NCBI RefSeq assembly: GCF_011764545.1
Contig: NZ_AP022870.1
Location: 790,001 to 854,000 of the forward strand
DNA length: 64,000 bases
Direction of reading: 5' to 3'
From: Phytohabitans flavus
Lineage (GTDB): Bacteria > Actinomycetota > Actinomycetes > Mycobacteriales > Micromonosporaceae
The notes under the pieces were generated by a model, which worked only from the letters and a program-made list of their open reading frames with translations, had not been told where the DNA came from and made no database searches. The stretch's first letter is position 1. Every line of letters starts with the position of its first letter. This document shows positions 20,772 through 50,600 of the stretch, one piece after another. Position numbers and translations under genes: made by a program.

Positions 20772-20833
20772 GCCGAGTCTTCGGCACACAGCAGGGCCGC
20801 AATGGGGAGAGTCGCTACGGGGAGGCGAACGCC

Positions 20834-29562: not shown

Positions 29563-29862
29563 CCGTTCGCTCGTCCCTCCGCTGATAAGGACTCTGCCGG
29601 GAAAACCGCTGTCCGAGCACGTTATCGCATTCCAGCATAGCTTCGTCAGGGTGTAAAAGAACCGTATGAACTCTCGCGCTAAAAGACGTTTGTTGGACTG
29701 GTGACGCCGACCCTTAATGCCCCCTATCAGCCCCTGAATCGCGGATGTGACCGCCCCGCCCACCCCTATTACCGGTGGTGTTCATTGTCCGTGGAGACGT
29801 CGGGCTTCTAGATTTACCGTGCACGGCGTAGCGGGTGGAGCAATCGAGGGAGCGCGTGGCCG
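29563..29862. promoter_or_regulatory. Divergent promoter region with triple CCCCTA-type direct repeat
   Basis: From 29710 the units ACCCTTA, CCCCTA and CCCCTG follow each other at steps of 11 and 10 bases, with another CCCCTA at 29763-29768. A possible promoter for the gene at 29863 is TTGTCC (29785-29790), 18-base spacer, TAGATT (29809-29814). No gene is seen in the 300 bases. Confidence 0.55.
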
Positions 29863-30360
29863 ATGACCGATGACACGGGGATCACCGAAGCCGAGAAGGT
29901 CACCCCCAGCGGCCCTCCACCAGCGCCTGAGCAGCTGCACCAGCTGGACTTCCTGCTCGGCCGGTTCGAGTGCGTCTTCAACAACGTGGTCGTCGACCCG
30001 CCCACGACGGTGGTCACATACTGGGAAACCCGAAAGACTCTCAACGGGCATTACTACGAGATGGACATCACCATGCCAACGGGTCAGTTTTCCGCCCGAT
30101 GGATCTTCGGGTGGAACGATGTCGAGGCGGGCTTTCTCTCGTACTATTACGACGACATCGGCAGCCAGGGCACCTCGATCGCGCCGGGATGGCAAGACGG
30201 GCACCTTGTGTTCACCGGTCAGTCAAACTACTTCGGTCATCGCATCACCAATCGCGACGACTTCGTCATCGTCGACGAAAATCACGTGCTCGACACCTCG
30301 TACGTCCTGGAGGACGGCGAGTGGGAGCTGGCCGGCACCTACGACTGCCGGCGGATCTGA
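29863..30360 (+). CDS. Unknown protein, cytosolic member of a paralogue pair
   Basis: This 165-aa protein has no signal peptide or membrane segment. It contains PPPAPEQLHQLDFLLGRFEC, LNGHYYEMDITM and SYYYDDIGSQGTS. The same blocks occur in the exported protein at 32919-33584 (PPAPAQLAELNFLLGTYKC, LSGHYYEMEY, YYYDDHDNKGT), so the two are related. The mainly beta-strand pattern resembles lipocalin-like/DUF1579-type proteins, but that is a weak match and no function is assigned. The ATG at 29863 has GAGGGA about 10 bases upstream. The DrrA-like gene begins 5 bases after its stop, so it probably shares that operon. Confidence 0.8.
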   Translation: MTDDTGITEAEKVTPSGPPPAPEQLHQLDFLLGRFECVFNNVVVDPPTTVVTYWETRKTLNGHYYEMDITMPTGQFSARWIFGWNDVEAGFLSYYYDDIGSQGTSIAPGWQDGHLVFTGQSNYFGHRITNRDDFVIVDENHVLDTSYVLEDGEWELAGTYDCRRI

Positions 30361-30365
30361 GAGTG

Positions 30366-31367
30366 ATGGACTACGCGATCCAGACCGAGGGTCTGGTGAA
30401 GCGGTTCGGGTCGGTGACCGCCCTCGGTGGGGTGGACCTCGCCGTGCCGGCCGGGACGGTGCTGGGGCTGCTCGGTCCCAACGGCGCCGGCAAGACGACG
30501 ACGGTGCGCATCCTCAGCACCCTGATGGCACCCGACGGCGGCACCGCCCGGGTCGCGGGACACGACCTGGTCAAGGAGCCCGGCCGGGTGCGCGAGCGGA
30601 TCGGCCTCACCGGGCAGTACGCGGCCGTGGACGAGGAGCTCACCGGCTACGAGAACCTGATCCTCATCGGCCGGCTGCTCGAGCTGTCCCGCCGGGAGGC
30701 CAAGCGCCGCGCCGGCCTGATGCTGGAGCACTTCAGCCTGGTCGAGGCGGGCAGCCGCTCGGTCAAGACGTACTCGGGTGGCATGCGGCGCCGGCTCGAC
30801 CTGGCGATGAGCCTGATCGGGCGGCCGCAGGTGCTCTTCCTCGACGAGCCGACCACCGGCCTGGACCCGCGGTCGCGGGGAGACGTGTGGGACCTGGTCC
30901 GGGGGCTGGTGGCCGACGGCGCCACGGTCCTGCTGACCACGCAGTACCTTGAGGAGGCCGACAGGTTGGCCAGCGAGATCGCGGTGATCGACCGCGGGCG
31001 GGTCATCGAGAAGGGCACGCCGGCGCAGCTGAAGTCCAAGGTGGGCGGGCAGAGCCTCGACGTGCGCCCGACCACGCGAGACGACCTGACCGCCGTGGCC
31101 GACCTGCTCTACGACGTGGTGGGTGTCAACGCCACGTACGACGGGGACGGCGGGGTGGCCTCGGTGGCGCTCGACGCCACCCGCTCGGGCACCGAGACGC
31201 TGACCACCGTGGCGCACAAGCTTGACGCGGCCGGCATCGAGGTGACCGAGCTGGGGCTGCGGCTGGCCAGCCTCGACGAGGTGTTCCTGGCACTGACCTC
31301 CCGTCCCGCAGACGAGCCGGCCGAGCCGCCGGCCGGCCGGCGAACTCGAATGGGGCAGAGCGCATGA
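30366..31367 (+). CDS. DrrA-type ABC exporter ATP-binding protein
   Basis: This 333-aa ATPase has Walker A GPNGAGKTTT, signature YSGGMRRRLDLAMSL, Walker B VLFLDEPTTGLD and the switch TTQYLEEADRLA. A C-terminal domain of about 100 residues is typical of daunorubicin-resistance (DrrA) proteins. ATG at 30366 is preferred, with an in-frame GTG 3 bases earlier possible. The stop overlaps the permease start (ATGA). With DrrB it would pump the product out and give self-resistance, a role inferred from family and position. Confidence 0.92.
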   Translation: MDYAIQTEGLVKRFGSVTALGGVDLAVPAGTVLGLLGPNGAGKTTTVRILSTLMAPDGGTARVAGHDLVKEPGRVRERIGLTGQYAAVDEELTGYENLILIGRLLELSRREAKRRAGLMLEHFSLVEAGSRSVKTYSGGMRRRLDLAMSLIGRPQVLFLDEPTTGLDPRSRGDVWDLVRGLVADGATVLLTTQYLEEADRLASEIAVIDRGRVIEKGTPAQLKSKVGGQSLDVRPTTRDDLTAVADLLYDVVGVNATYDGDGGVASVALDATRSGTETLTTVAHKLDAAGIEVTELGLRLASLDEVFLALTSRPADEPAEPPAGRRTRMGQSA

Positions 31368-32128
31368 CCCCGGTGCGTGCCGCACGGCACAGTGCGACCC
31401 TGGCCTGGCGCGGCCTTATCCGGCTCAAGCACGCGCCGGACGAGCTGCTTGACGTGCTGCTGATGCCGATCACGTTCGTGCTGATGTTCGTGTTCCTGTT
31501 CGGCAACGCGATCGCCGGCGACTGGCGCGACTACCTGCAATTCGTGCTCCCCGGCATCGCCGTGCAGGCGCTGATGTTCACGTCGCTCGGCACCGCCCTG
31601 GCGCTCAACACCGACATCCGCACCGGCGTCTTCGACCGGTTCCGGAGCATGCCGATCGCCCGTTCCGCGCCGCTCGTCGGCCACCTGCTCAGCGACCTCG
31701 TCAAGTACGTGGTCTCGCTGGTCGTGGTCTTCGGGTTCGGCACGGTGCTCGGGTTTCGGACGTCCGGCTCCGCGCTGGCGGTGATCGTGGGCGGGGCGAT
31801 GATCGTCCTGTTCGCCTTCACGATCTCGTGGATCGCCGCGCTGATCGGCCTGGTGGCGAAGAGCCCGGCCAACGTGCAGGCACTCGGGCTGCTGCTGGTC
31901 CTGCCGGTGACGTTCGGCAGCAACGTCTTCGTGCCCACTGACGAGCTGCCCGGCTGGCTCCAGACCTGGGTGAAGATCAATCCGGTCACCCAGCTCTCCG
32001 ACGCGGTCCGCGCCTTCATGCTTGACCAACCCGCGCACGACGCGCCACGCAACGCTCTACTGTGGATGGTCGGTCTGATCGCCGTTTTCGCGCCGCTCGC
32101 CATCAGGGCCTACCGCCGCCAAGCCTGA
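31364..32128 (+). CDS. DrrB-type ABC exporter permease (ABC-2 family)
   Basis: This 254-aa permease has six hydrophobic segments and the ABC-2 pattern LMPITFVLMFVFLFGNAI, FRSMPIARSAPLVGHLLSDL and VFVPTDELPGWLQTWVKINP. It is translationally coupled to the ATPase. The pair is a complete drug exporter. After it the plus-strand operon ends, and a 790-base gene-poor stretch follows. Confidence 0.92.
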   Translation: MTPVRAARHSATLAWRGLIRLKHAPDELLDVLLMPITFVLMFVFLFGNAIAGDWRDYLQFVLPGIAVQALMFTSLGTALALNTDIRTGVFDRFRSMPIARSAPLVGHLLSDLVKYVVSLVVVFGFGTVLGFRTSGSALAVIVGGAMIVLFAFTISWIAALIGLVAKSPANVQALGLLLVLPVTFGSNVFVPTDELPGWLQTWVKINPVTQLSDAVRAFMLDQPAHDAPRNALLWMVGLIAVFAPLAIRAYRRQA

Positions 32129-33656: not shown

Positions 33657-34466
33657 TCAGCGCCCCTGCCACTTCGGCGAGCGCTTCTCGACGAACGCCA
33701 GCGGCCCTTCACGCGCGTCCTGGCTCCGCACTCGCTCCTCCTCCCACACGTACCGGGTGGCGAAGGCCTGTGGCAGCGACAGGTGCGCGGAGGACGAGGC
33801 GGCTTCCTTGACCGCGCGCACCGCGAGCGGCGCGCAGCGCAGGATGTCCTCCACCCACCCGTCGACACAGTCGTCGAGGCGGTCGGCCGGCACGACCTCG
33901 TTGACCAGCCCCAGCTCGTACGCCCTCGCGGCGCTCAACGGCCGGCCGGTCATCAGGTGCCCCATGGCGGTCTTGAGCGGCAGCTGCCGGCTGAGGCGAA
34001 ACACCCCGCCCGCCCCGGCGACCAGGCCCAGCTTGGCTTCCGGCAGCGCGAAGGTGGCGTGCTCGGCGGCGATCGCGATGTCGCAGGCGAGCACCAGCTC
34101 GAAGCCGCCCCCGAACGCGTACCCGTTGACCCTGGCCACCACCGGCTTCGACAGCGTGAACCGCTCGGTGAGCCGCGGCCAACCGGGCTTGCCCCGGCTG
34201 CCGAACGAGGTCGGTGGCTCGCCGCTGTCGACGCGCCGTACCAGCTCCTTGAGGTCCTGCCCGACCGAGAACGCGCGGTCACCGGCGCCGGTCAGCACCC
34301 CCACCCAGACGTCGTCGTCGCGCTCGAAGTCGTCCCACACCGCTGCCAGGCTCGCGTGCATGGCGAGGTCCATCGCGTTGAGTACGGCGGGCCGGTCCAG
34401 CGTGATGTACGCCGCGTGGCCCCGCTTCTCGTAGCGCACACCGGCGCCGTCCACTGTGGAGTCCAC
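33657..34466 (-). CDS. dpgD: DpgD-like enoyl-CoA hydratase (crotonase family)
   Basis: This 269-aa crotonase-fold protein has the oxyanion-hole motif [19 protein letters not shown] and the active-site region [20 protein letters not shown]. DpgD works with DpgB to improve conversion of the DpgA product to 3,5-dihydroxyphenylacetyl-CoA by dehydration/aromatisation. GTG at 34466 is one base after the aldehyde dehydrogenase stop, so it is the last gene of the six-gene operon. The symbol is based on family and context; crotonases are hard to tell apart by sequence alone. Confidence 0.85.
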
Positions 34467-34467
34467 G

Positions 34468-35928
34468 TCAGAACGGGTACGGTGCCGGGGCGGAGCGCAC
34501 GGTCAGCCACTGCCACTGGGTGAACTCGTCCCAGCTCTGCTGCGCGCCGTAGCGGCTGCCGTTGCCGGAGGCGCCCCGCCCGCCGAAGGGTACGAAAGCC
34601 TCGTCGTTGATGGTCTGGTCGTTGACGTGCACGATGCCGGTGCGCAGCCGGTCGGCCAGCGCGGTCCCGCGTTCGACGTCGCCGGTCTGCACGGCCGCCA
34701 CCAGCCCGTACTCGGTGCGGTTGGCGACGGCGACCGCCTCCTCGTCGTCCTTGACCACGATGACCGGGGCGACCGGCCCGAAGATCTCCTCGCGAAACGC
34801 GGGCATCTCGGTGGTGACCTCGGCAAGCACGGTGGGCCGGTAGAAGAGGCCCTCGTGGGTGCCACCGGCCCGCAGTTCGGCGCCGGCGGCGACGGTGTCC
34901 CGGACGATCCGGTGCACCCGGTCGCGCTGGGCCGCGTTGATCATCGGTCCGAGCGCCACCTTCTCGGTCCACGGGTTGCCGACCGGCAACTTCTCGGCGC
35001 GGGCGGCGAGCCGGTCGAGGTACTCGCCGGCCACCGACTCGAGCACGATGTGCCGCCCGGCGGTCATGCAGATCTGGCCCTGGTGGAAGAACGCGCCCCA
35101 GGCCCCCGCCGAGCTGGCCAGGTCGAGGTCGGCGTCGTCGAGCACGATCAGCGCGTTGTTGCCGCCGAGCTCCAGCGAGACCCGCTTGAGGGCGCGGCCG
35201 GCCGCCTCGCCCACCTGCCGGCCGACCGCGGTCGAGCCGGTGAACGAGATCATGGCGATGTTGGGATCGGTGGCCAGCGCCCGCCCCGGCTCGGCGTCGC
35301 CGGCGAGGACGTGCAGCACGCCCTCCGGGAGGCCGGCCTCCTCGAAGAGACGGGCGAGCACGAGACCCCCGCTGACCGCGGTCTGCACATCGGGCTTGAG
35401 GACCACCGCATTGCCGAGAGCCAGGGCGGGTGCCACCGCGCGCATCGCCAGCAGCAGCGGCACGTTCCACGGCGTGATCACGCCGACGACGCCGAGCGGG
35501 ATGCGGCGGCCGATGCTCTGCCGGCCCGGGGTGGAGGGCAGCAGCTGTCCGAACGGCTCCGCGGGCAGCCCGGAAGCGACCCACAACTCGTCGAGCACCG
35601 ACGAGACCTCGTGCTCCGCCTTGCCAGGTACGCCGCCGCCCTCGCGTACCAGCCATCCCACGACCTCGTCGCGGTGCGCCTCCAGGATCTGGGCGGCCCG
35701 CCGCAGCACCGCCGCGCGTTCGGTGTGCGCAGCGGCGGCCCACGCGGGCTGGGCGAGCGCGGCCGCCGAGGCCGCCGAGGCGATGTCACCGGCGTCGGCC
35801 AGGCCGACGGTGGCCAGAGTCTTCCCGGTCGCCGGCTCGGTGACGTCGACCGTGCCGCCGGCCGGCTCCCGCCAGCCGCCGCTGAATACCTTGCCGGCGA
35901 GTGCGACCGGGTCGATCAGGGGAAGCAT
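34468..35928 (-). CDS. Aldehyde dehydrogenase (predicted 3,5-dihydroxybenzaldehyde dehydrogenase)
   Basis: This 486-aa NAD(P)-dependent aldehyde dehydrogenase has the substrate-entry motif [12 protein letters not shown], the cofactor motif [16 protein letters not shown], the general-base region SLELGGNN, the catalytic cysteine in [10 protein letters not shown], and [10 protein letters not shown]. It is closest in pattern to benzaldehyde/vanillin dehydrogenases. ATG at 35928 has AAAGGAA 6 bases upstream; the open frame upstream is an antisense extension. It follows the decarboxylase gene by 11 bases, so the natural reading is oxidation of the resulting 3,5-dihydroxybenzaldehyde to 3,5-dihydroxybenzoate. 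The substrate is inferred. Confidence 0.88.
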
Positions 35929-35939
35929 CGGCGTTCCTT

Positions 35940-37589
35940 TCACGAGTGTCCGGTGATCGGCACGTCGATCAGTAGCGGTGTGGGGGATTCGGTGGCCTTC
36001 GCGACCACGTCGACGAGGTGGTCGGCGTCGGTGATCCGGACCGCTTCGATGCCGAAGAACTCGGCGACCCGGGTGAAGTCCAGCACCGGCGGATCCAGGT
36101 CGAGCCCGATGTACTGGCCGGTCCGGGTGGATCGGCTCTGCCACGAGTCGAGGGTGTTCTTGAGCGTGCGGTACTCGCCGTTGTTCATCACGACGAACGT
36201 GACCGGCACCCGGTAGCGGGCGGCGCTCCACAGCCCCTGTAGGCCGAAGAGCGTGCAGCCGTCGCCGAGCACCGCGACTACCGGCCGGCTCGGGTCGCCC
36301 AGCCGGGTGCCGATCGCGGCGCCGATACCCGAGCCGAGGCCGCCACCGACGGTGTGTACGAGCGAGCGGGGCCGGTCGAGGGTGAGCACCTCGCGCAGCA
36401 GCACGCCGCTGGTGATCGCCTCCTCGACGACGACCGCGTCGGCGGGCAGCCCGGCGGCGACCGCGTGTGCGGCGGCGAGCGGATCGAGCGGCGCCGGCCC
36501 GTACGCGGCCCGCGCCATCGCGTCGACCTTGGCGCGGCGGGCGGCGGCGATCGCACCCGCCGCGGTGGCCCGGTCCGGGGCGTCGGGCACCGTGCCGGCG
36601 AGCCGGTCGGCGAGCGCGGCGAGGGTGGTGCGGATGCCGCCGGCGAGGCCGACGTCGACCCGGAAGTTTCGGCCGATCTCGTGCTGGTCGGAGTCGAGCT
36701 GCACCACGGTCGCGTCGGGCGGCACGGGCGCCACCGGCGTGTAGTGGTGTGCCATGAAGGCGTGGCAGCCGACCACGAAGACCACGTCGTGCGGGGTGAG
36801 CCGCTCCCGGATCGCGGCGTTGACCGGTGGCAGCGCGCCGCCGTGGAGCGGGTGCGAGCCGGGGAAGTCGACGCCGTCGTGCATCGGCTGGTGGTAGGTG
36901 ACCGCGCCGAGCGCCTCGGCGACGGCGACGAGCTCGGCGACCGCACCGTCGCGGCCGACGCCGTCACCGGCCACGATCGCCGGCCGGGTGGCCGCGGCGA
37001 GCACGGCGACGGCCCGGTCGAGGTCGGCGGCGCGTCCCCAGGCCGGGCGGTGCGACCGCTCGGCGACCTCCACGGGCGCCTGCTCGGCGAGCAGGTCCAT
37101 CGGGATGGAGAGGAAGACCGGCCCGGCCGGCGGGGCGGCGGCGATCGCGAAGGCGCGGCGCAGCATGATCGGCAGGTCGTGGCCGTGCTGTACGTCGAAC
37201 ACGTGCTTGGCGACCGGCTTGGCCAGCCCGACGAGGTCGCCGGAGAGCATCGGATCCTGCACCATGTGCCGGCGGTCCTGCTGCCCCGCGGTGATCACCA
37301 GCGGGGTGCGCGACCGGGTCGCGTTGAGGAAACCGACGAGGCCGTTGGCGAGCCCGGCCGCCACGTGCAGGCTGACGAAGGCGGGGCGGCCGGTGGCGCG
37401 GGCGTACCCGTCGGCCATTGCCATCACCGAGCCCTCGTGGACGCCGAGGACGTACTCGATGTCCGGGGCCTCCGCGAGGGCGTCGGTGAACGGCAGCTCG
37501 GTCGTACCCGGGTTGCCGAAGACGCGGTCCACGCCCTCGTCGCGAAGGATGGCCAGCATCGCCTGCACCGGCGTCGTCAGCGTGCCCAC
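35940..37589 (-). CDS. ThDP-dependent decarboxylase, benzoylformate decarboxylase-like
   Basis: This 549-aa thiamine-diphosphate enzyme has the activating glutamate in VLGVHEGSVMAMADGYARAT, FGNPGTTELPF at the N-terminus, LHVAAG with the active-site type histidine, and the ThDP motif from VLGDGCTLFG to MNN. It resembles benzoylformate decarboxylase. The gene overlaps dpgC by 13 bases: GTG 37589 lies inside the dpgC 3' end. Context predicts decarboxylation of 3,5-dihydroxyphenylglyoxylate, the DpgC product, to 3,5-dihydroxybenzaldehyde. In glycopeptide clusters an aminotransferase acts on this keto acid instead. Confidence 0.88.
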   Translation of the reverse strand: MGTLTTPVQAMLAILRDEGVDRVFGNPGTTELPFTDALAEAPDIEYVLGVHEGSVMAMADGYARATGRPAFVSLHVAAGLANGLVGFLNATRSRTPLVITAGQQDRRHMVQDPMLSGDLVGLAKPVAKHVFDVQHGHDLPIMLRRAFAIAAAPPAGPVFLSIPMDLLAEQAPVEVAERSHRPAWGRAADLDRAVAVLAAATRPAIVAGDGVGRDGAVAELVAVAEALGAVTYHQPMHDGVDFPGSHPLHGGALPPVNAAIRERLTPHDVVFVVGCHAFMAHHYTPVAPVPPDATVVQLDSDQHEIGRNFRVDVGLAGGIRTTLAALADRLAGTVPDAPDRATAAGAIAAARRAKVDAMARAAYGPAPLDPLAAAHAVAAGLPADAVVVEEAITSGVLLREVLTLDRPRSLVHTVGGGLGSGIGAAIGTRLGDPSRPVVAVLGDGCTLFGLQGLWSAARYRVPVTFVVMNNGEYRTLKNTLDSWQSRSTRTGQYIGLDLDPPVLDFTRVAEFFGIEAVRITDADHLVDVVAKATESPTPLLIDVPITGHS

Positions 37590-38917
37590 GCCCGCCCCAC
37601 CTTGGCGAGCACGTCCTCGCTGTACAGGCGGCGGGCCTGCCGCACCGCGAACTCGGCCAGGTAGGCGTGGAAGCGGTCGACCGGCTCGTCGGCGAGGTTG
37701 AGCATGGCGCGGTTGGCGACGACGGCCGGGCTGTCGAGCCGGTCGACGCCCGCCTCGACGGCGGAGTCCATCGAGGACGGCTCCACGACCTCGTCGCGGA
37801 AGGCCGCGCCCGCCGCCTCGTGCGCGTAGATCTTGCGGCCCCAGAGGATCACCTGGCGTGCCAGCCGCCCACCGCCGTGGCGGCTCAGCCGGAGGTTGGA
37901 GACGCCGGGCACGATGCCCTCCTGCGCCGCCGGGAGGCTGAAGTAGGCGTCGGCGGCCGCGATCACCCGGTCGAAGACCGTGAGCAGCTGCGCGCCGCCG
38001 CCGATCGCGAACGTGTCGACCGCGGCCAGCCAGGGCTTCTGGACGGTACGCTGCGGCCACGCCGCCGGATCGGGGTCGACGAGCAGGCCCCGCAGGATCT
38101 TGTTGATGTAGCCGATCTCGCGGCGGAGCAGGAAGTCGACGTACGAGATCTGGCCGTGGTGCAGGTCGGTGAGGTTGATGCCGGCGCTGAACACCCGCCG
38201 CCCGTGGTAGCGCGGATGGGTCATCGGCCCGCCCCGCAGCACCCCGACCCGGATGTCGTCGTCGAGCAGCACGAGGTCGACCGCGGTCTCCATGTCGCCG
38301 ACCGACGGGTCGTCCTCGGCGTTGAGGCACTTGACGTTGGACATCGTGATGTGGCCGGCCGCGCCGCGCCGCTCCACCGTCACCGAGCCCAGGGTGACCG
38401 AGCCGGCGCGGCGAAACTCGCCGAGCAGCCGCCGCGCCTGCTGCGTCGGCAGCTGCATCGCTTCGGTCAGGTGGGTGGCCACCTCTGTACGGCGCAGCAG
38501 CGACCCGAAGAAGATGCCCTGGTCGATCTCCCGGCCCTCTTTTGCCGCCTGGACGCGTTCCCGCTCCTGCGCGACCTGTGCCCTCGTGGGCACCAGGCCG
38601 GTGAAGAGCTCGGCCGCGCCGTACACCAGCTCGGGTAGGCGCAGGTGCAGGGTCTGGCCTTCGGTCAGCTCCGCGTACACCTGGTCGCCGTGGATGTGCA
38701 TGAAGCGCGCCCGCTGCCGCCGGGCCGCCTCGTGGATGTCGCCGGCCCGCACCTGCTGCTCCGCGGTGCGCTCGGGCTTGGCGGGCAGCTCCTCCAGCAG
38801 CTCCTCGACCCGCTCGGTGTACTGCGCCAGGGCCTTCGCGTCCGTTGCCAGCTCGCCGCCGAACGTGGGCGGCTCGATGGCCGCCCGCTGCGGCGCGGCG
38901 ATCCCCGTGGCCTCCAT
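37577..38917 (-). CDS. dpgC: DpgC, cofactor-free 3,5-dihydroxyphenylacetyl-CoA dioxygenase
   Basis: This 446-aa protein has a helical N-terminal third (about 190 residues) and a crotonase-like C-terminal part with FAIGGGAQLLTVFDRVIAAA and PAAQEGIVPGVSNLRLSRHG. This is the DpgC architecture. DpgC uses O2 without metal or cofactor to cleave the thioester and oxidise the alpha carbon, giving 3,5-dihydroxyphenylglyoxylate. ATG at 38917 is 4 bases after the dpgB stop. Its length is close to known DpgC proteins. Confidence 0.93.
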   Translation of the reverse strand: MEATGIAAPQRAAIEPPTFGGELATDAKALAQYTERVEELLEELPAKPERTAEQQVRAGDIHEAARRQRARFMHIHGDQVYAELTEGQTLHLRLPELVYGAAELFTGLVPTRAQVAQERERVQAAKEGREIDQGIFFGSLLRRTEVATHLTEAMQLPTQQARRLLGEFRRAGSVTLGSVTVERRGAAGHITMSNVKCLNAEDDPSVGDMETAVDLVLLDDDIRVGVLRGGPMTHPRYHGRRVFSAGINLTDLHHGQISYVDFLLRREIGYINKILRGLLVDPDPAAWPQRTVQKPWLAAVDTFAIGGGAQLLTVFDRVIAAADAYFSLPAAQEGIVPGVSNLRLSRHGGGRLARQVILWGRKIYAHEAAGAAFRDEVVEPSSMDSAVEAGVDRLDSPAVVANRAMLNLADEPVDRFHAYLAEFAVRQARRLYSEDVLAKVGRAWAR

Positions 38918-38921
38918 CCGA

Positions 38922-39677
38922 CTACCCGGCGACCGTGTGGACCGAGCCGCCGAGGACCATCGGCACCGGGTCGGAGACGGCCTGCCGCGCCTTGATCAGG
39001 GAGCGGTCGCAGGCGGACAGGTGGGCACCGAGCGCGTCCTCGAAGGTCGTCGCGGTCGCGTCCAGGAGCAGCCGCCGGCGGATCGCGAGCTCCGGCCCGG
39101 CCGCGCCGCGCAGCGCGGCGACCCGTTCCTGCGTGCTGGCGACCAGGTCTCCGGCGACCTCGTCGACGAGGCCCACCTGCTCGGCCTTCGCCGCCGGCAC
39201 CTCGCGCGCGAAGAGGGCCAGCGGGCGCGCCCGGGCCACGCCGAGCTGGTTGGCCAGCCGGTAGAGCAGCATGCTCGGCCAGAGCGCGCCGCTGTGCCAA
39301 GGCTGGAGCAGGCGCAGGTCGTCGGCCGCGATCCGGTAGTCGGTGGCGAGCAGCACCTCCAGGGCCGGCCCGCCGCAGCTGCCCTCGGCGACCGCGATGG
39401 TGATGGCGTTCAGCCGCTCCAGCCGCCGTAGCGCGCGCTCCCAGTGGTTGACGAGGTGGACGCCGACCTCGCCGGGCCAGCTGTCCGCCCGGTCGGTCGA
39501 GGGCGTCGACGACGCCAGGTGCACGACCGCGACACGATGCTCTCCGGCGTCTTCGACGCGCTCGCAAAGTGCGGTGATGGTGCCGATCAGCTCTTGGGAA
39601 AGGGGAGCGGCACAGTCAATTCCCAGATAGGCGTCGGCGACCTCTTCGAGTTTCGAGCCGCCGCTATTCGATGACAC
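38922..39677 (-). CDS. dpgB: DpgB-like enoyl-CoA hydratase
   Basis: This 251-aa divergent crotonase has AEGSCGGPALEVLLATDYRI as the oxyanion-hole region and a following LWPSMLLYRLANQLG. Both are typical of DpgB, which helps DpgA release and dehydrate the tetraketide to 3,5-dihydroxyphenylacetyl-CoA. The GTG start at 39677 has a GGGGGC about 9 bases upstream. It is the second gene of the operon, 60 bases after dpgA. Confidence 0.88.
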   Translation of the reverse strand: MSSNSGGSKLEEVADAYLGIDCAAPLSQELIGTITALCERVEDAGEHRVAVVHLASSTPSTDRADSWPGEVGVHLVNHWERALRRLERLNAITIAVAEGSCGGPALEVLLATDYRIAADDLRLLQPWHSGALWPSMLLYRLANQLGVARARPLALFAREVPAAKAEQVGLVDEVAGDLVASTQERVAALRGAAGPELAIRRRLLLDATATTFEDALGAHLSACDRSLIKARQAVSDPVPMVLGGSVHTVAG

Positions 39678-39737
39678 GATGTGTTGCCCCCGTTCCGGAG
39701 CGGAGTCTGATTGCCAGAAGATGCGCGAGCGAACTGT

Positions 39738-40847
39738 TTACCAGCGGACCAGGACGGTCTCGATGGTCGACCCGGGACCCATTGTCATGAGGATGCCGTA
39801 GTCACCGGGACTCACCGTGCCCTCGTCCAAAAGGCGACGGTAGGAGAAAAGGAAGGAACCGCTCGAGAGATTGCCGTAGTCACGCAACACGCTGACGGTG
39901 TGCCGGACGTCGTGCCGGGTCAGCCCAAGATTGATCATGACGGAGTCGATGACCTTCTTGCCGCCCGAGTGGACAATCCAGTGCTCGATGTCCTTGCGCC
40001 GCAGGCCGGTGCCGGACAGCAGCGAGTCGATCACCAGCTCGGCGTGCGCACCGACCACGTACGGCACGTCGCGGTCCAGGTAGAAGCTGAACTTGCCGTG
40101 GTCGTCGTCCCAGTCGAATCGCATGGCGTCGATCGACTCGGGGATCATGAAGCTGGACGACTTGAGCACCGTCGGGCCCGGCTGGCTCTGCCGCGGGTCG
40201 GCGATCACCAGCGCCGCCACCGCACCGTCGCCGAACAGGCTGTTGACGACCGAGGTGCGCATGCTGCCGTCGAAGACGTACGCCGCGGAGCAGGCCTCGA
40301 TGCAGAGCAGGATCGCCAGCTCGCCCGGGTGGGTGCCGGCCCAGCCGGTCACCGCGTTGAGCCCGTTGAGCCCGGCGTTGCACCCCATGCCGACGACGTC
40401 GAGGCGCGCGGTGTCGGGGTTGAGGCTCAGCTCGCGGACGAGCAGTGCGCTCAGACCTGGCGTGAGCAGGCCCGTGGAGGTCACGCAGCACAGGAACCGC
40501 ACGTCGCTCAGGTCGGCGTTGGCCTCCTTGAGCGCGGCCTGAAGCGCCCGCACCCCCATGTCGACGCCCTGGTTGCGGTGCTTGCGCAGCAGCTCGCCCT
40601 GCGTCTCGGTGGTGCGGGTGCCGTCCGGCCCCTCGGGTGGGAGGGAGAGGAAGCGGCGCTTGATGGCGCTGTTGCGGAACACCGAGGCGATCCGCTGGTC
40701 GTCGATGTTGAAGAGATCCAGCAGGTCGTCCTGCGAGTAGGCGTCCGGCGGCACGGCGGTGCCGACGCTGACGATCCGCGGTCGCACTGTGAATGGCGCT
40801 CCACGGACGCCGATTGGGACCTTGACCGGTGTTGGTGTTTGTGTCAT
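39738..40847 (-). CDS. dpgA: DpgA, type III PKS (3,5-dihydroxyphenylacetyl-CoA synthase)
   Basis: This 369-aa type III polyketide synthase has the catalytic triad Cys156 (VGMGCNAGLNG), His293 (WIVHSGGKK) and Asn326 (DYGNLSSGSF), and ends with MTMGPGSTIETVLVRW. It condenses four malonyl-CoA into the precursor of 3,5-dihydroxyphenylacetyl-CoA. ATG at 40847 has GGGGGA 5 bases upstream. It leads the six-gene minus-strand operon. Here the pathway appears redirected to 3,5-dihydroxybenzoate instead of dihydroxyphenylglycine. Confidence 0.94.
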   Translation of the reverse strand: MTQTPTPVKVPIGVRGAPFTVRPRIVSVGTAVPPDAYSQDDLLDLFNIDDQRIASVFRNSAIKRRFLSLPPEGPDGTRTTETQGELLRKHRNQGVDMGVRALQAALKEANADLSDVRFLCCVTSTGLLTPGLSALLVRELSLNPDTARLDVVGMGCNAGLNGLNAVTGWAGTHPGELAILLCIEACSAAYVFDGSMRTSVVNSLFGDGAVAALVIADPRQSQPGPTVLKSSSFMIPESIDAMRFDWDDDHGKFSFYLDRDVPYVVGAHAELVIDSLLSGTGLRRKDIEHWIVHSGGKKVIDSVMINLGLTRHDVRHTVSVLRDYGNLSSGSFLFSYRRLLDEGTVSPGDYGILMTMGPGSTIETVLVRW

Positions 40848-41161
40848 CTGTCCCCCAGGTGACCTTATCGACGTCGTTTACACCCCGGTGAACTTGCTCA
40901 TTTCTATTTGACTCTACGGCTCGTCTCCCGAGCCAACGTGTAGTACCTTACCTCCAGTGCGAGCCAAAGCTATCGATCGAATGTGAAGTTTTGGTCACAC
41001 GGCAGGTAGGGGCGCATAGGGGTTCCGTCAAGGGTTGTAGGGGACCTTCTCCGATGTAGGCTCGTACACATCTCACAGCTCACTAACCCGACTGCTTCGT
41101 GCGCCGGAATGGGCTATGTTCCGCCATAGAAGGCACCAAAAAAATTAAACGGGGGTGCTGA
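40848..41161. promoter_or_regulatory. Bidirectional control region between dpgA and the PKS gene
   Basis: This 314-base gap is the only control region for both halves of the core. TAGGGG occurs at 41007-41012, 41017-41022 and 41038-41043, with the variant CAAGGGT near 41029, giving four units about 10 bases apart. Read toward dpgA they are CCCCTA/ACCCTTG, as upstream of other cluster genes. A small inverted repeat GGCTCG/CGAGCC lies at 40918-40934. The PKS start has GGGGG at 41151-41155. Individual -10/-35 boxes are not clear. Confidence 0.6.
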
Positions 41162-44100
41162 ATGCTGCGCACTGACCTGATCCGGCCGGTGCCTGAGATG
41201 CTTCGCGCGCAATCCGAGAAGTACGGCGACAAGGTCGCCTTTCTCGACGAGCGGCGCGGTGTGAGCTACCGGGAGCTTGAGCGACGTACCGCCCGGCTGG
41301 CGGGACACCTCGCCCGGCTCGGCCTCGGTCCGGGCGAGTGCGCGGCGATCTACCTCAACAACTGTGTCGAGGTCGTCGAGAGCTACTTCGCCATCAACCG
41401 GGCCGCCGGCGTGGTCGTACCGATGAACCCCCGCTCGTCCAACGCCGAGCTGGCCTACCTCCTCGAGCACTGCGCCGCGCGGGTAGTGATCACCGACGGC
41501 GGCCACCTCGACCAGGTGCACGCCGTGCTGGCCGGGCGCGACGGCATCACGGTGATCGTGGTCGGCGACGAGGCCGGCGGTGCCGAGCACTCGTACGAGG
41601 CGCTGGCCAACACCGAGCCGGCCACCCCGAGCCGCGACTCCCTCGGCCTCGACGACGTGTCCTGGATGCTCTACACGTCTGGCACCACGGGCCAGCCCAA
41701 GGGTGTGCGGTCCACCCAGCGCAACGTGCTCTGGTCGGTCGCCGCCTGCTACGCCCCGATCCTCGGGCTGTCCGACACAGACCGGGTGCTGTGGCCCCTA
41801 CCCCTGTTTCACAGCCTCGCCCATGTGCTCTGCGTTCTCGGCGTGACCTCGGTCGGCGCGACCGCCCGCATCATGCCCAACTTCGCCACTGACGAGGTGC
41901 TCGACGCGGTCCGCCAGGACGACTACACGTTCCTGGTCGGCGTGCCGACGATGTACCACTACCTGTTGCGCGCCGCGGAGGCCTCGGACGCCTCGGAGCT
42001 CGCCCCCGCGCTGCGCGCCTGCCTGGTCACCGGCTCGGTCGCCACCGCCTCGCTGCGGGAGTCGTTCGAGCTGGCGTTCGGCGTTCCGCTGCTGGACAGC
42101 TACGGCAGCACCGAGACATCCGGCGCCATCACCATGAACTGGGCCACCGGGGCGCGGGTACCCGGCTCGTGCGGCCTGCCCGTGCCCGGCCTGGCGGTGC
42201 GGCTTGTCGACCCGGACACCGAGCGTGACGTCGAGGCCGGCGCCGAGGGCGAGGTCTGGGTCAGCGGCCCCAACGTGATGCTGGGCTACCACAACAATCC
42301 GGATGCCACCGCCGCCGCGCTGCGCGGCCGCTGGTACCGCACCGGCGACCTGGCCCGCTTCGACGACAACGGGTACCTGAGCATCACCGGGCGGATCAAG
42401 GACCTGATCATCCGGGGTGGCGAGAACATCCACCCCACCGAGGTCGAGGACGTGCTCCTCGCCATCGACGGGATCGCCGAGGCGGCCGTGGTGGCCAAGC
42501 CGCACGAGGTGCTCGGCGAGGTGCCCGCGGCGTACGTCGTGCCGGCCGCCGGCGTGCCGCTCGACCCGGAGCGCGTATTCGCGATCTGCCGCGAGCAGCT
42601 CTCCTACTTCAAGGTCCCCGAGGAGCTGTACGAGGTCGAGGAGATCCCGCGCACCGGATCCGGCAAGATCATCCGGCACCGCCTGCTGGAGCGCCCGGCC
42701 CGGCTCCGCGGCGTCCGGGGCAACCACCTCGATCTGCTCTACCGGGTCGACTGGAGCCCGCTCGCGACGGCCGACGCCACGGCCGAGCCCTCCTGGCAGC
42801 TGGTCGACCACCGCCACGACCTCGGCGCGCTGGAGCCGATGCCGGACCTCGTCGCGGTCCGGGTCCCCGGCGCCGAGGACGGCGCCGACCCGACGGTCGC
42901 GGTGCGGCAGGCCGTGTCCGGGGCCCTCCGGCTGGTGCACGGCTGGCTGACGGCGGCCGGCACCGGCGAGAGCCGGCTCGTCCTGGTCACCCGGCACGCG
43001 GTCGAGGTCGACGGCCACATCACCGACCCGGCCGGCGCCGCCGTGTGGGGGCTCATCCGCTCCGCCCAGGCCGAGCACCCGGGCCGCTTCGTCCTCGCCG
43101 ACGTCGACGACGAGCCCGAGTCGCTCGCCGTCCTGCCCGCCCTCGCCGCCGGCGACGAGCCGCAGATCGCGATCCGGCGGGGCGAGGCGCGGGTGCCGCG
43201 GCTCGCCCCGGTCCGGACCACCGGCGGCGGCACCGACTCGGTCAGCGCCGCCGGGTGGAATCCCGACGGCACGGTCCTGATCACCGGCGGGACGGGTGGG
43301 CTCGGCGCCGCCGTCGCCCGCCATCTTGTCGCCGCCCGCGGTGTCCGGCATCTGGTACTCGTCAGCCGCTCCGGCCCGGCCGCCGAGGGCGCCCAGCAGC
43401 TCGGCGAGGAGCTCACCGCGCTCGGCGCGCAGGTGAGCGTCGCCGCCTGCGACGCCGCCGACCGCGATGCCCTCGCCGCCGTGCTGGCCGGCATCCCGGC
43501 CGCGCACCCGCTCACCGCGGTGGTCCACGCCGCCGGCGTCCGCGCCGACGGCCTGGTCGAGGGGCAGAGCCCAGACCAGATCGAGCCGGTACTGCGCTCC
43601 AAAGTGGACGCCGCCTGGCACCTGCACGAGCTCACCCGCGACAAGGACCTGTCGGCGTTCGTGCTCTTCTCCGCCTCGTCCGGGCTGCTCGGCACGGCCG
43701 GCGAGGCGGGCTGGGCAGCCGCGAACGCCGGCCTCGACGCGCTCGCCGGACTGCGCCGCCAGCAAGGGCTGCCCGCTGTCTCGCTCGCCTGGGGACGGTG
43801 GAACGAGCCGGCCGGCATGGGCGGCCGCATGAGCACCGCCGACGTGCGGCGGGCCGCGCGTACCGGACAGCTCAGCATGGCCACCAGCGAAGGGCTCGCG
43901 CTGCTCGACGCCGCCGGCGCCGTCGACGAGGCTGTGCTCGTACCGGCGCGGATCGAGGTCAACAACATCCGGTCCGCGGCCGACCTGCCACCGCTGCTGC
44001 GCGGCCTGGCCCGCGCCCGCACGGCCGCCGAGGGCGACGCCGCCCTTGTCGACAGCCTCGCCGACCTCGACGCCACGGACCGGTCCCGGGTCCTGCTCGA

Positions 44101-47100
44101 TCTGGTACGCGACGAGGTCGCCACGGTCCTCGGGCTCGACAGCGGCAACGCTGTCGACGAGGACCGCACCCTGAAGGACTTCGGCTTCGAGTCGGTCACC
44201 GCCGTGGAGCTGCGCAACCGGCTGGCCGGGCGCACCGGGCTGCGGCTGCCGGCCACCATCGCGTTCGACCACCCCACCGCCACCGCCCTAGCCAAATACC
44301 TGAAGGGCCGGCTCTTCGGCGACCGCGCCACCGCCGTACGCGCCGTGGTGCCGGCCGCCCCCGACGAGCCCATCGCGATTGTCGGCATGAGCTGCCGGCT
44401 GCCCGGCGGGGTGGCCAGCCCCGACGAGTTCTGGACGCTGGTGGCCGCCGGGGTGGACGCCGTCTCTGGCTTCCCCACAGACCGCGGCTGGGACGTCGAG
44501 GAGCTTTTCGACCCGGACCCGGACCGGGCCGGCAAGAGTTACGTGCGGGAGGGCGGTTTCCTCTACGAGGCGGCCGAGTTCGACCCGGCGTTCTTCGGGA
44601 TCAGCCCGCGCGAGGCGCTCGCCATGGACCCGCAGCACCGGCTGTTGCTGGAGACCGCGTGGGAGGCGGTCGAGCGGGTCGGCATCGATCCCGGGTCGCT
44701 GCGCGGCAGTAACACGGGCGTCTTCGCCGGCGTGATGTTCCGTGACTACGCGGCTCGCCTCGGCCAGGTGCCGGACGACGTCGAGGGATACCTCGGCATC
44801 GGCAACGCCGGCAGTGTCGCCTCCGGCCGCGTCTCGTACACCCTCGGTCTGGAAGGGCCGGCGGTCACGGTCGACACGGCGTGCTCGTCGTCGCTGGTGG
44901 CGTTGCACCTGGCGGCCCAGTCCCTGCGGCAGGGGGAGTGCTCGCTCGCGCTGGCCGGCGGCGTCGCGGTCATGGCCACCCCGGACGTGTTCGTCGAGTT
45001 CTCCCGGCAGCGCGGTCTGGCAAACGACGGGCGCTGCAAGTCGTTCGCGGCGGGCGCCGACGGCACCGGCTGGGCCGAGGGCGTCGGGATGCTCGTGGTG
45101 GAACGGCTTTCCGACGCGCGCCGCAACGGGCACCAGGTGCTGGCGGTGCTGCGGGGGAGTGCGGTCAACCAGGACGGTGCCAGCAACGGACTGACCGCGC
45201 CGAATGGTCCCTCGCAGGAACGGGTGATCCGCCAGGCCCTCGCGAACGCCCGCCTCACGACGTCCGATGTGGACGCGGTGGAGGCGCACGGTACCGGCAC
45301 GAAGCTTGGTGACCCGATCGAGGCGCAGGCGATCCTGGCCACCTACGGGCAGGGTCGTGAGCGTCCGTTGTGGCTTGGTTCGGTGAAGTCGAACATCGGT
45401 CACACTCAGGCGGCGGCGGGTGTCGCGGGTGTCATCAAGATGGTGATGGCGATGCGGCATGGCATGTTGCCGCGGACGCTGCACGTGGACGCCCCGACAC
45501 CTGAGGTGGACTGGACGGCCGGCAGCGTCGAGCTGTTGACCGAGCCGGTCGAGTGGGCCGCCAACGGGCACCCACGCCGGGCCGCGGTATCGGCCTTCGG
45601 GGTCAGCGGCACCAACGCGCACGTGATCCTCGAAGAGGGCGACGCGCCGGAGCCGGTGGCGGAGGATTCGGCACCGGTTGTGCCGTGGGTGCTGTCGGCC
45701 AAGAGTGAGCCGGCCCTGCGGGCTCAGGCCGCGCGGCTGGCTCGCTTCGCGGCGTCCGATGAAGGCCTGCGGCCGGTGGATGTGGGCTGGTCGCTGCTGT
45801 CCCGGTCGCGGATGCCACACCGGGCGGTGGTCACCGGTCCCGATGCGGCGGGGCTGGCCGCGGCGTTGACGGGCTTCGCCGGTGGCGACCCGGAGTCGGC
45901 GGCGGCCGTCGTGTCCGGACCGGGTGGCGGCGCGGGCACTGGCGTGGTCTTCGTCTTCCCGGGCCAGGGCTCGCAGTGGCCGGGGATGGCGGTGGAGCTG
46001 CTGGCATCGTCGCCGGTGTTCGCGGCGGCGTTCGACGACTGCGCGCTCGCGCTGGCGTCCTTCGTGGACTGGGATGTGCGGGCCGCGCTGACCGATCCGG
46101 TGCTGCTGGAACGGGTCGACGTGGTGCAGCCGCTGCTGTGGGCGGTGATGGTGTCGCTCGCCGAGGCGTGGCGCGCGTTCGGCGTGGTCCCCTCGGCCGT
46201 GGTGGGCCACTCACAGGGTGAGATCGCCGCCGCGTGTGTCGCGGGTGCACTGTCCCTACAGGACGGCGCGCGGGTGGTGGCCCTGCGGTCGAAGGCGCTG
46301 CGGGAGCTGGCCGGCGGGGGCGCGATGATCTCCGTGGCGGCGACCGTGGAGCAGGTGCGGGAGCTGCTGGCCGGGCACGACGGCGTCTCGATAGCGGCGG
46401 TCAACGGCCCGGGATCCGTGGTGGTCGCCGGGTTGACCGGTCCGGCGGACGGCTTCGTCGCCGCCCTGGACGCGGCCGGTGTGCGTAACCGGCGGATCGC
46501 CGTGGACTACGCCTCCCACTCGGTGCAGGTCGAAGCGATCGAAGCCCAGCTCGCCGAGGTGCTGGCACCGGTTCAGCCTCGGGCGGCACGGATCGCCTGG
46601 TACTCCACTGTGGAGCGATCCTGGATCGACGGTACGCAGGCTGATGCCGGCTACTGGTACCGGAACCTGCGGCAGACAGTGTGGTTCGCCACCGCGACCG
46701 AAGCGCTGCTCCACAGCGGATACCACGGGTTTGTCGAGGTCAGCGCCCATCCGGTGTTGACCGTGGGGGTGCAGGAGAGCATCGACGCGGCGGGGGCACC
46801 GGCGTGGGTGACCGGCACGCTGCGGCGCGACGAGGGCGGCCTCCAGCGGCTCTTCACGAGCGTCGGCGCGGCGTTCGTCAACGGGGTAGGGGTCGACTGG
46901 GCCGCCGCGTACGCCCAGCTCCAGCCCCGTACCGTCGGCCTGCCCACGTACGCGTTCCAGCACAGCCGGTACTGGCTCGACGTCACCGGCAGCACCGCAG
47001 GCGACGTGACCGGCGCCGGTCTGACCGCCGCCGAGCACCCGATCCTCGGCGCGGCGGTCGCGTTGGCCGACGGTGACCGGGTCGTGCTCACGGGCAGGAT

Positions 47101-47698
47101 CTCCCTCAAGACCCATCCGTGGCTCGCCGATCACGCGGTCATGGGCTCCGTGCTCATGCCCGGCACCGCCTTCGTGGAGCTCGCCATCCGGGCCGGCGAC
47201 GAGGTCGGGGCGGGTCACCTCGAAGAACTCACGATCCAGTCCCCGCTCGTACTGCCCGAGCGCGGCGGCGTACAGGTCCAGGTCACTGTCGGTGTGGCGG
47301 GCGAGACCGGCCGGCGCGAGCTGGCGGTCTGGTCCCGCCCCGAGGGGCCCGAACGCGAGTGGACGCAGCACGCCGCGGGTGTGGTGTCGGCCGATAGGGG
47401 TGTAGCTGCTTCCGATCCGGGGCTCATGCAGTGGCCGCCGGTCGGCGCCGATGTGGTGCCGGTGGACGGCTTTTACGAGCAGCTTGCCGCCGAGGGTGTG
47501 GAGTACGGTCCGGCGTTCCAGGGTTGGGGCAGGTGTGGCGGCGGGGCGAGGAGGTCTTCGCCGAGGTGGCGCTGCCTGAGGGCGAGCGGACGGCCGGGTT
47601 CGGTTTGCATCCGGTGTTGTTGGATGCGGCGTTGCAGGCGTGGTTCCGGGTGCATGCGGATGGGCAGTTGCGGATGCCGTTCGCGTGGAGCGGTGTGA
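41162..47698 (+). CDS. Modular type I PKS, 5' part: CoA-ligase loading module and module 1 up to DH (frameshifted)
   Basis: This is the start of an 18-kb gene of about 6028 aa. Domain order: CoA-ligase (41162-42690; [11 protein letters not shown] from residue 171, GWYRTGDLA-like [10 protein letters not shown]); KR (43260-43830) with Trp851 for the catalytic Tyr and Ala838 for Ser, so inactive; ACP (Ser1011 in GFESV); KS (44360-45640, Cys1241, EAHGTGT, NIGHTQ); AT (45940-46860, GHSQGE, YASH at 46508: methylmalonyl); DH (from 47030, [10 protein letters not shown]). Real homology ends at about 47523. Here TT stands where the duplicate module has TTT, shifting the frame, and the last 58 residues are out of frame. 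The loading ligase should activate the 3,5-dihydroxybenzoate made by the divergent operon. ATG 41162 has GGGGG 6 bases upstream. Confidence 0.93.
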
Positions 47699-50600
47699 GC
47701 CTGTTTGCTGCGGGCGCCCGGGCGTTGCGGGTGCGGTTGGCTGCGGCGGCTGACGGCGGTGTCGCCGTGAGCGTGGCTGACCACAGTGGAGCGGTTGTTG
47801 CGGCGGCGGAGTCGTTGGTACTGCGGCCGGTCTCGGCGGAGCAGCTGGACACGGCCCGGCGTAGCGACGACGGTTTGCACGTCGTCGACTGGGTGACGGT
47901 GGCGGCGGGATCTGGTCCGCGGTTGCCTGTGGTGTCTGACCTGTCGGTGTTTGACGAGGTCGAGCGGGTGCCGGCGACGGTGGTCTACCGGCCGGCGCCG
48001 GTGGAGTCGACTCTGCCGGAGGATGTGTGGCGGTTCAGCGCGGTTGTGCTTGCGTCGCTTCAGGCGTGGCTGGCCGACGAGCGCTGTGCTGGTGGCCGGC
48101 TGGTGGTGGTCACGGGCGGTGCTGTGGCGGTGTCGTCGCAGGAGCCGGTGACGGACCTGGCGGCGGCGGCGGTGTGGGGTCTGGTGCGGGCGGCCCAGTC
48201 GGAGCATCCGGGCCGGTTCGTCCTGGCCGATGTGGACAGCGATCCCGGGTCGGTGGCGGCCCTGGATGGCCTGGTTGGGCTTGACGAGCCGCAGTTGGCG
48301 GTGCGCGGCGGCGTCGGGTACGCGCCTCGGTTGGCGCGGTTGACGCAGACGACTTCGCCGTTGGAGTGGGATCCGGACGGCACTGTGCTGGTCACTGGTG
48401 CGACCGGTGGTCTGGGCGTGCAGGTGGCTCGGCATCTGGTCAGTACTCGTGGGGTTCGGCGGCTGTTGCTGGTCAGCCGCTCCGGTCCGGCCGCTCCGGC
48501 TGCTGCGGAGCTTGTCGAGGAGCTGGCCGCGGCTGGTGCGCAGGTCGAGCTTGTCGCCTGTGACGTGGCGGACCGGGAGGCGCTTGCCGCGTTGCTGGCT
48601 GGTCGTTCCTTGGCGGCGGTGGTGCACACGGCGGGTGTGGTCGACGACGGTGTGATCGAGTCGATCACCGCGGACCAGCTCGCGAACGTGTTCCGTCCGA
48701 AGGTGGACGCTGCCTGGAATCTGCACCAGCTCACCCGCGACATGCCGCTTACCGCCTTCGTGGTCTATTCGTCGGCCGCCGCGATCCTCGGATCTCCCGG
48801 TCAGGGCGCGTATGCGGCCGGCAACGCCTTCTTGGATGGGTTGGCCGCGGTTCGTCGGGGGCTGGGTTTGCCGGCGGTGGCGTTGGCGTGGGGCATGTGG
48901 CAGGCCGAGTCCGGTGGGATGGCGAGTCGGTTGTCGGAGGCCGACCGTCGCCGCTTGCAGCGGGCTGTGGTGGGGATGAGTGCCGAGCAGGGTTTGGCGT
49001 TGTTCGACGCCGGTCTGGCCAGTGGGCGGGCGGCGGTGGTGCCGGCCCGGTTCGATCTGGCGGCGGTACGTGCCCAGGCGGCGACCTCGGGGGTGCCGTC
49101 GATGCTGCGCGGCCTGGTCCGGGCACCGCGTCGTGCCGCTGTTGAGGTGGGCACGGCCGGTGGTGGTTCGTCGTTGGCGCAGCGGCTGGCCGGGCTGGAC
49201 GTCGTGCAGCGGCAGCAGGCGCTGCTGGATCTGGTACGTCGTCATGTGGCGGCTGTGCTCGGGCACGATTCGGTCGAGACCGTCGAGCCCGGCCGGGCGT
49301 TCAAGGAGCTTGGGTTCGACTCGCTCACCGCTGTCGAGCTGCGTAACAACCTCAGCACCGCCACCGAGCTACGCCTACCCGCCACCCTGACCTTCAACCA
49401 CCCGACGTCCAACGCGCTCGCCGACTACCTGGGCAAGCAACTCCTCGGCACCACCGGCGAGACCGTGGTACGCGCACCGGTGGCTGTCGCCGCCGACGAG
49501 CCGATCGCGATCGTCGGCCTCGCCTGCCGCTTCCCCGGCGACGTCCGCTCACCCGACGACCTGTGGCAGATGCTCGTCACCGGCGGCGACGGCGTCTCGG
49601 CCCTGCCCGACAACCGGGGCTGGGACGTCGAGGAGCTGTTCGACCCGGACCCCGACCGGGCCGGCCGCAGCTACGTACGCGAGGGCGGCTTCCTCTACGA
49701 CGTCGCCGACTTCGACCCGGCGTTCTTCGGGATCAGCCCGCGCGAGGCGTCCGCCATGGACCCCCAGCAGCGGCTGCTCCTCGAAGTCTCTTGGGAAGCG
49801 CTCGAACGGGCCGGCCTCGACCCGACTGCCCTGCACGGCAGCCAGACCGGCGTCTTCACCGGCACCCACGGGCAGGACTACGCCGGCCTCCTCGACCAGG
49901 CACCCGAAGGCGCCGAGGGCTACCTCGTCACGGGCAGCGCCGGCAGCGTCATGTCCGGCCGCGTCTCGTACACGTTTGGCTTCGAAGGTCCCGCCGTCAC
50001 CGTCGACACCGCCTGCTCGTCGTCTCTCGTCGCGTTGCACCTGGCGGCACAGGCACTGCGGGCCGGCGAATGCTCGCTCGCCCTAGCCGGCGGCGTGTCC
50101 ATCATGTCCACGCCCGAGGGCCTGATCGCGTTCTCCCGGCAGCGCGGGCTCGCCGCCGACGGTCGCTGCAAGGCGTTCGCCGCCGGGGCCGACGGGTTCG
50201 GCATGGCCGAAGGCGCCGGCATCGTGGTGGTCGAGCGGCTCTCCGACGCCCACGCCAACGGCCACACGGTCCTTGCCGTGCTCCGGGGGAGTGCGGTCAA
50301 CCAGGACGGTGCCAGCAACGGCCTCACCGCACCGAACGGTCCCTCGCAGGAACGGGTCATCCGCCAGGCCCTCGCGAACGCCCGGCTCACGGCGTCCGAT
50401 GTGGACGCGGTGGAGGCGCACGGTACCGGCACGAAGCTCGGTGACCCGATCGAGGCGCAGGCGCTGCTAGCCACGTACGGCCAGGACCGGTCCACACCAC
50501 TCAAGCTCGGGTCGGTGAAGTCGAATATCGGCCACACCCAGGCCGCCGCGGGCATCGCCGGCGTGATCAAGATGGTGCTGGCCATGCGGCACGGGCTGCT

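Follow-up and report, generated by a model that had tools for sequence, protein, structure and literature searches.

The region analysed (the window) is a 64,000-nucleotide stretch, bases 790001-854000 of the one-contig, 9.6 Mb genome of Phytohabitans flavus; coordinates above 64000 extend the window numbering past its end. A minus-strand run of six genes at 33657-40847, arranged head to tail with spacings of -19 to 60 nt, encodes DpgA-D, a benzoylformate decarboxylase (BFD)-like enzyme and an aldehyde dehydrogenase (Table 1). A type I PKS starts divergently at 41162, 314 nt away, and a promoter scan of the 314-nt region between dpgA and the PKS gave no match. This is the t1pks/t3pks cluster that Komaki and Tamura (2020; PMC7692728) catalogued in strain NBRC 107702 (AP022870): it matches in a 369-aa type III PKS and in PKS ORFs whose sizes (2178, 3045 and 4076 aa) and domain orders, ending in ACP/TE, are identical. 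DpgA has the size of Pflav_008030 (369 aa).

Table 1. Features of the cluster in window numbering. MM, methylmalonyl-specific AT; M, malonyl-specific AT; PKS protein limits allow for frameshifts.
Feature	Coordinates	Strand	Description
LAL-type LuxR regulator	20762-23641	+	AAA_16 and GerE domains; candidate cluster activator (compare VemR, Kmy4)
Cytochrome P450	25739-26989	+	Pfam p450 E 3.8e-31; only C-terminal half matches in frame; candidate tailoring enzyme
ABC exporter pair	29970-32128	+	ATPase 29970-31367 (DrrA-like C-terminus), permease 31364-32128; candidate efflux
dpgD	33657-34466	-	Enoyl-CoA hydratase, dihydroxyphenylacetyl-CoA formation; NCBIfam EnCoAhydt_DpgD 476 bits (cut-off 400)
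Aldehyde dehydrogenase	34468-35934	-	Pfam Aldedh E 3.5e-155; predicted 3,5-dihydroxybenzaldehyde to 3,5-dihydroxybenzoate
BFD-like enzyme	35940-37589	-	ThDP-dependent; three TPP_enzyme Pfam domains; GTG start by inspection
dpgC	37577-38917	-	3,5-dihydroxyphenylacetyl-CoA 1,2-dioxygenase; NCBIfam DpgC 594 bits (cut-off 530)
dpgB	38922-39677	-	Enoyl-CoA hydratase; NCBIfam DpgB 240 bits (cut-off 140)
dpgA	39738-40847	-	Type III PKS (3,5-dihydroxyphenylacetyl-CoA synthase); NCBIfam DpgA 622 bits (cut-off 425)
PKS1	41162-59247
PKS2	59264-80595
PKS3	80623-103138
PKS4	103149-124660
PKS5	124704-138850
PKS6	138897-157007
PKS1 loading module	41162-44320	+	CoA ligase 41162-42706, KR 43256-43831, ACP 44084-44320
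Module 1	44366-49449	+	KS-AT(MM)-DH-KR(B type)-ACP; frameshift near 47525, within the DH
Module 2	49498-54588	+	KS-AT(MM)-DH-KR(B type)-ACP
Module 3	54640-59247	+	KS-AT(M)-KR(predicted inactive)-ACP, C-terminal docking region; end of PKS1
PKS2 start	59264-64000 (window end)	+	N-terminal docking helix, module 4 KS-AT(MM)-DH-ER
PKS2 remainder	past window, to 80595		Module 4 KR-ACP and modules 5-7
Module 4			MM DH ER KR
Module 5			M DH(predicted inactive) KR
Module 6			M DH KR
Module 7			M DH KR
Module 8			MM KR(A type)
Module 9			M KR(A)
Module 10			MM DH KR
Module 11			M
Module 12			MM DH KR
Module 13			M DH(predicted inactive) KR
Module 14			MM DH KR
Module 15			M DH(predicted inactive) KR
Module 16			M DH ER KR
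Module 17			MM DH KR
Module 18			M KR(A)
Module 19			M KR(A)
Module 20			M DH(predicted inactive) KR
Module 21			M DH ER KR
Module 22			M DH ER KR TE

The four Dpg proteins, called with NCBIfam equivalog models, all score above the curated cut-offs and are linked, as expected for a 3,5-dihydroxyphenylglyoxylate pathway. Residues 29-444 of DpgC align to the solved DpgC structure 2np9 (E 1.1e-137). The BFD-like enzyme has the NCBIfam BFD model as its best match, at 404 bits and thus below the cut-off of 493, and it matches solved BFD structures in the PDB at E 3e-78. In an alignment to Pseudomonas BFD it retains the equivalents of the catalytic residues E47, H70 and H281, with Thr in place of S26. 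Both it and the aldehyde dehydrogenase belong clearly to their superfamilies. The aldehyde dehydrogenase has an alternative ATG start at 35919. DpgA, DpgB and DpgD would together turn four malonyl-CoA into 3,5-dihydroxyphenylacetyl-CoA, which DpgC would convert to the glyoxylate, the BFD-like enzyme would decarboxylate this to the benzaldehyde, and the aldehyde dehydrogenase would yield 3,5-dihydroxybenzoate (3,5-DHBA). At the gene level, the full set known from the ken, kmy and vem clusters is thus present, and a preliminary description of the sequence had correctly placed this predicted route next to a PKS primed by a CoA ligase, the arrangement also found for kendomycin B (PMC8708025) and venemycin (PMC5132015). 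The same enzymes together with a ligase-primed PKS make 3,5-DHBA for kendomycin B, where a type III PKS mutant regained production on 3,5-DHBA feeding (PMC8708025); for venemycin the same set has been proposed (PMC5132015).

Among the matches listed, dpgA-C and BFD genes occur together at at least 17 other loci, at least 12 of which also carry the aldehyde dehydrogenase; where the dehydrogenase accompanies BFD at another dpg locus, its identity is 64-73%. BFD-like proteins of 60-67% identity also occur widely in Actinomadura (loci L047, L050 and L054, among others), with no dpg genes nearby in the matches listed; this family has another role there, because those genes are absent. Streptomyces venezuelae did not appear among the listed matches of the BFD-like protein in the contig scan.

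The PKS is far larger than its visible part. Only modules 1-4 lie in the window, the fourth of them cut, and the interval given in the preliminary description stops inside the PKS, which runs uninterrupted to 157007, ~93 kb past the window end. The whole line is a cis-AT modular type I PKS of KS-AT-ACP modules, with six proteins bearing docking domains, 22 extension modules and a terminal thioesterase (Pfam E 1.2e-15; Ser within GRSAS, His within GNHFS). We counted 22 KS domains with DTACSS and 22 AT domains. In modules 1-4 the AT motifs read YASH, YASH, HAFH and YASH, and the predicted extenders, protein by protein, are MM,MM,M / MM,M,M,M / MM,M,MM,M,MM / M,MM,M,M / MM,M,M / M,M,M. With 22 modules, not 4-8, the product would not be small. 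The docking ends agree with the gene order, the pair between proteins 2 and 3 being of a distinct type when class is judged by eye; proteins 4 and 5 share one type of docking end and might in principle trade places.

Alignments indicate that four DH and two KR domains are probably dead. In the KR of module 3 the catalytic positions read Asn for Tyr and Asp for Asn, and in the loading KR the catalytic Tyr is Trp. DH5, DH13, DH15 and DH20 lack the YGPxF stretch and have Glu in place of Asp, and DH5 and DH20 also lack the His. These DHs (68153-69030, 105861-106720, 116121-116990 and 141649-142560) have in common a shortened middle and a change of LLDA to LLEA, as if one inactive type had been copied among modules 5, 13, 15 and 20. 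Modules 1 and 2 are near-duplicates after the AT: a DH piece is 95% identical in DNA (47521-47820 vs. 52657-52956), and over 48364-49449 vs. 53503-54588 the KR and ACP are 90% and 86% identical in protein, which suggests recent duplication or gene conversion. The module 3 KR (region 57070-59244) is highly divergent, with 34% identity to that of module 1, and for the region after its AT no close relative was found in the dpg-bearing genomes tested (best 48%).

Downstream of the thioesterase lies a class A flavin monooxygenase (FMO). It has GxGxxG, DG and GD motifs, and its final portion is read in a different frame. Next come an IS110-type transposase and, by inspection, housekeeping genes including recN. 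This FMO would hydroxylate the resorcinol ring, possibly towards a quinone. Strong relatives of it are present in ten of the 12 genomes with both dpg genes and a PKS loading CoA ligase (CAL), vs. one of 19 that have a CAL but no DpgA (Fisher p 1.5e-5, ignoring the kinship of the genomes); at a looser threshold of 1e-30 the latter count becomes three (p 4.5e-4). In at least eight of the dpg and CAL genomes the relative shares a contig with the CAL or dpg genes, and its usual place is next to the CAL gene or at the PKS end. This points to the family as a marker of dpg-primed PKSs. On the other side, the gene for a serine beta-lactamase-family protein (28177-29763; Pfam Beta-lactamase and DUF7586) separates the ABC exporter genes from that of a zinc-type dehydrogenase. 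An acyl-CoA carboxyltransferase (11760-13235) and a free-standing acyl-CoA ligase (13710-15230) possibly supply extenders at the cluster edge.

About 20 frame changes occur inside the PKS proteins, so that some domain calls were made on pieced frames; the first PKS gene is broken by the one at ~47525, whose junction falls within a stretch of four G. If they were real, the cluster would be a decaying, silent array of pseudogenes and its type I PKS truly ~21 fragments, a reading that the number of changes invites and that the authors of the genome leave open (PMC7692728). Against it, identical one-base losses recur at identical motifs: relative to intact sister KS genes, KS12 and KS13 lack the same G from CAGGGGGAGTGC, and KS14, KS17 and KS20 have lost a base at the same position of a CACCGC/CCC/AACGG stretch. 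Runs of at least four identical bases are found at nine of the 11 finely placed junctions, where ~0.2 per 30 bases would be expected, the active-site motifs of the KS domains are intact, and the completeness estimate is just 89% although the genome is one contig. Because of the recurring losses and the base runs, the splits are most likely homopolymer errors of long-read assembly, as most likely are the many split PKS genes reported for this genome, and we consider decay improbable.

The N-terminal order of the line is AMP-binding ligase, KR, ACP and KS, with the ligase domain (Pfam AMP-binding E 9.4e-93) at the very start of the divergent PKS, as had been described. This ligase would activate 3,5-DHBA onto its ACP, the adjacent KR being dead, although the substrate is suggested mainly by gene linkage and the ligase sequence alone is no proof. 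The closest dpg-linked CAL has 68% identity, and CALs from PKSs of genomes without DpgA reach 66-67%; since such relatives exist, the ligase is not diagnostic, and we discarded its sequence as proof of the starter. These relatives would also suit another aromatic starter, such as 3-amino-5-hydroxybenzoate or 3-hydroxybenzoate, with the dpg genes serving another product, and Komaki and Tamura report an AHBA-type loading ligase at another site in the genome (PMC7692728). We think this unlikely, given that the dpg genes adjoin the PKS, that BFD and aldehyde dehydrogenase would be superfluous for a glycopeptide route, that no NRPS is adjacent among the annotated genes, and that the divergent dpg/PKS layout is seen again in Streptomyces antioxidans and Kutzneria. 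The CAL tree places the CALs of Phytohabitans and of Dactylosporangium sucinum, whose genome carries dpg genes, as sisters (support 89/96). CALs from dpg-bearing genomes also cluster (5 changes vs. 10.9 in shuffles; none of 500 as low). The FMO association is a stronger sign of the starter than this tree.

A third reading assigns the cluster to the kendomycin type, its product being an analogue of kendomycin whose ansa ring is carbocyclic. Like the kendomycin B (kmy) and ken clusters, judged from published module descriptions, the P. flavus cluster has the type III PKS with DpgB/C/D-like, BFD and aldehyde dehydrogenase enzymes for 3,5-DHBA, together with CAL loading and a dead KR, a LAL regulator, a class A flavin monooxygenase and a thioesterase. 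AT1, AT2 and AT4 of kendomycin B select methylmalonyl and AT3 malonyl (PMC8708025), as here; the order MM, MM, M, MM in the preliminary description is thus borne out by the AT motifs, but it is not without match, as had been thought. The two lines differ in reduction and in everything past module 4. The module 2 DH, dead in kendomycin B, has an intact motif and looks active in P. flavus, while the module 3 KR, of A1 type in kendomycin B, is dead here. Kendomycin B has eight modules (MM,MM,M,MM,MM,MM,MM,M), whereas P. flavus has 22 and its module 5 is malonyl-specific, which rules out identity beyond module 4 and makes a kendomycin analogue very improbable. The kendomycin E chain, with CH2 at C10 and C11 beside the C12 methyl (PMC8620246), fits a fully reducing module 4 like that of P. 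flavus.

The venemycin cluster (PMC5132015) shares the six starter enzymes (vemA-F), the LAL regulator VemR and the 3,5-dihydroxybenzoic acid primer, but its short PKS line consists of two proteins of 2236 and 1325 aa, and it differs further in its halogenases and biaryl product. Neither two short type I PKS proteins nor, among the annotated genes, a halogenase was seen in P. flavus. Quinolidomicin is a quinone macrolide. Its cluster (qnm, PMC8698034), likewise a CoA-ligase-primed giant macrolide PKS from the Micromonosporaceae, was our first idea given the giant PKS, and was ruled out by module count and order (33-34 modules; M, MM, M, M...). The full module order is therefore not identical to that of kendomycin, venemycin or quinolidomicin. 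In this family, DpgA is missing from most of the genomes that have a CAL-PKS.

We judge it likely that this hybrid type III/type I cluster encodes a 3,5-DHBA-primed, 22-module line to a large macrolactone with an FMO-oxidised ring. The six proteins would add 22 extender units, eight of them methylmalonyl, to the starter, and the thioesterase would release a large macrolactone with an aryl-diene-ketone tail. Domain logic under strict collinearity predicts, from the starter side, an aryl group, two trisubstituted alkenes, ketone, CH2-CHMe, OH, diene, OH/Me, OH, alkene and ketone, followed by alkene, OH, alkene, OH, CH2CH2, alkene, three OH, two CH2CH2 pairs and the carboxyl. The predicted free acid is C59H90O14 and the lactone C59H88O13, 1004.6225 Da before tailoring by the P450, the monooxygenase and possible sugars. 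The ring would have 30, 32 or 38 atoms for attack by the C29, C31 or C37 hydroxyl, from modules 9, 8 and 5, respectively. Because four DH and two KR look dead, we predict a polyol with mostly isolated double bonds rather than a long polyene; a conjugated tetraene at modules 12-15, in our first skeleton, was withdrawn after the DH alignment. We give even odds to a more specific proposal: a giant (~1 kDa) aryl-tailed macrolactone class, unreported so far, in which a separate polyol line of 18 modules has been attached to a kendomycin-like front end (starter and modules 1-4) and a monooxygenase family common to 3,5-DHBA-primed PKSs takes the resorcinol to hydroquinone or quinone.

The 2020 report lists 21 type I PKS proteins and predicts a large polyene with a chalcone-like starter; it reports no compound for the cluster and notes poor growth, and the text covered gives no description of the DpgB-D/BFD/aldehyde dehydrogenase route (PMC7692728). 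Our reading is instead of six proteins, 22 modules, 3,5-DHBA and a polyol. The 3,5-DHBA route, the evidence for homopolymer errors, the dead DH and KR domains and the association of FMO with dpg are new here, the cluster itself having been catalogued in 2020. The suggestion of a new resorcinol- or quinone-type polyketide stands in that the product may be either. There is a small chance that the compound is already known, because many giant PKS products have no deposited clusters and the literature covered was open-access. Known products of type I PKSs primed with 3,5-DHBA are few (we found the kendomycins and venemycin), and the P. flavus line would be by far the longest; the predicted mass and the aryl dienone UV chromophore make its compound searchable.

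CAL searches of 355 genomes of the family and 395 drawn from the class gave a top identity of 68% and no orthologous line. The readable front ends of the CAL relatives differ, leaving out D. sucinum, whose contig stops within the first KS. Streptosporangium saharense and Streptomyces sp. CB02056 share the dpg, BFD and aldehyde dehydrogenase genes, CAL-KR-ACP loading, an FMO of 47-49% identity and modules 1-3 (MM DH KR, MM DH KR, M without KR), but have nine modules and another order past module 3. Their clusters (genome G362, C8:215129-275128, and genome G368, C3:211114-271113, respectively) have the same domain order as each other, with the FMO and two ER-like genes, and Streptomyces mangrovisoli (genome G359, C90:52336-92335) has a seven-module dpg-primed PKS with an FMO.
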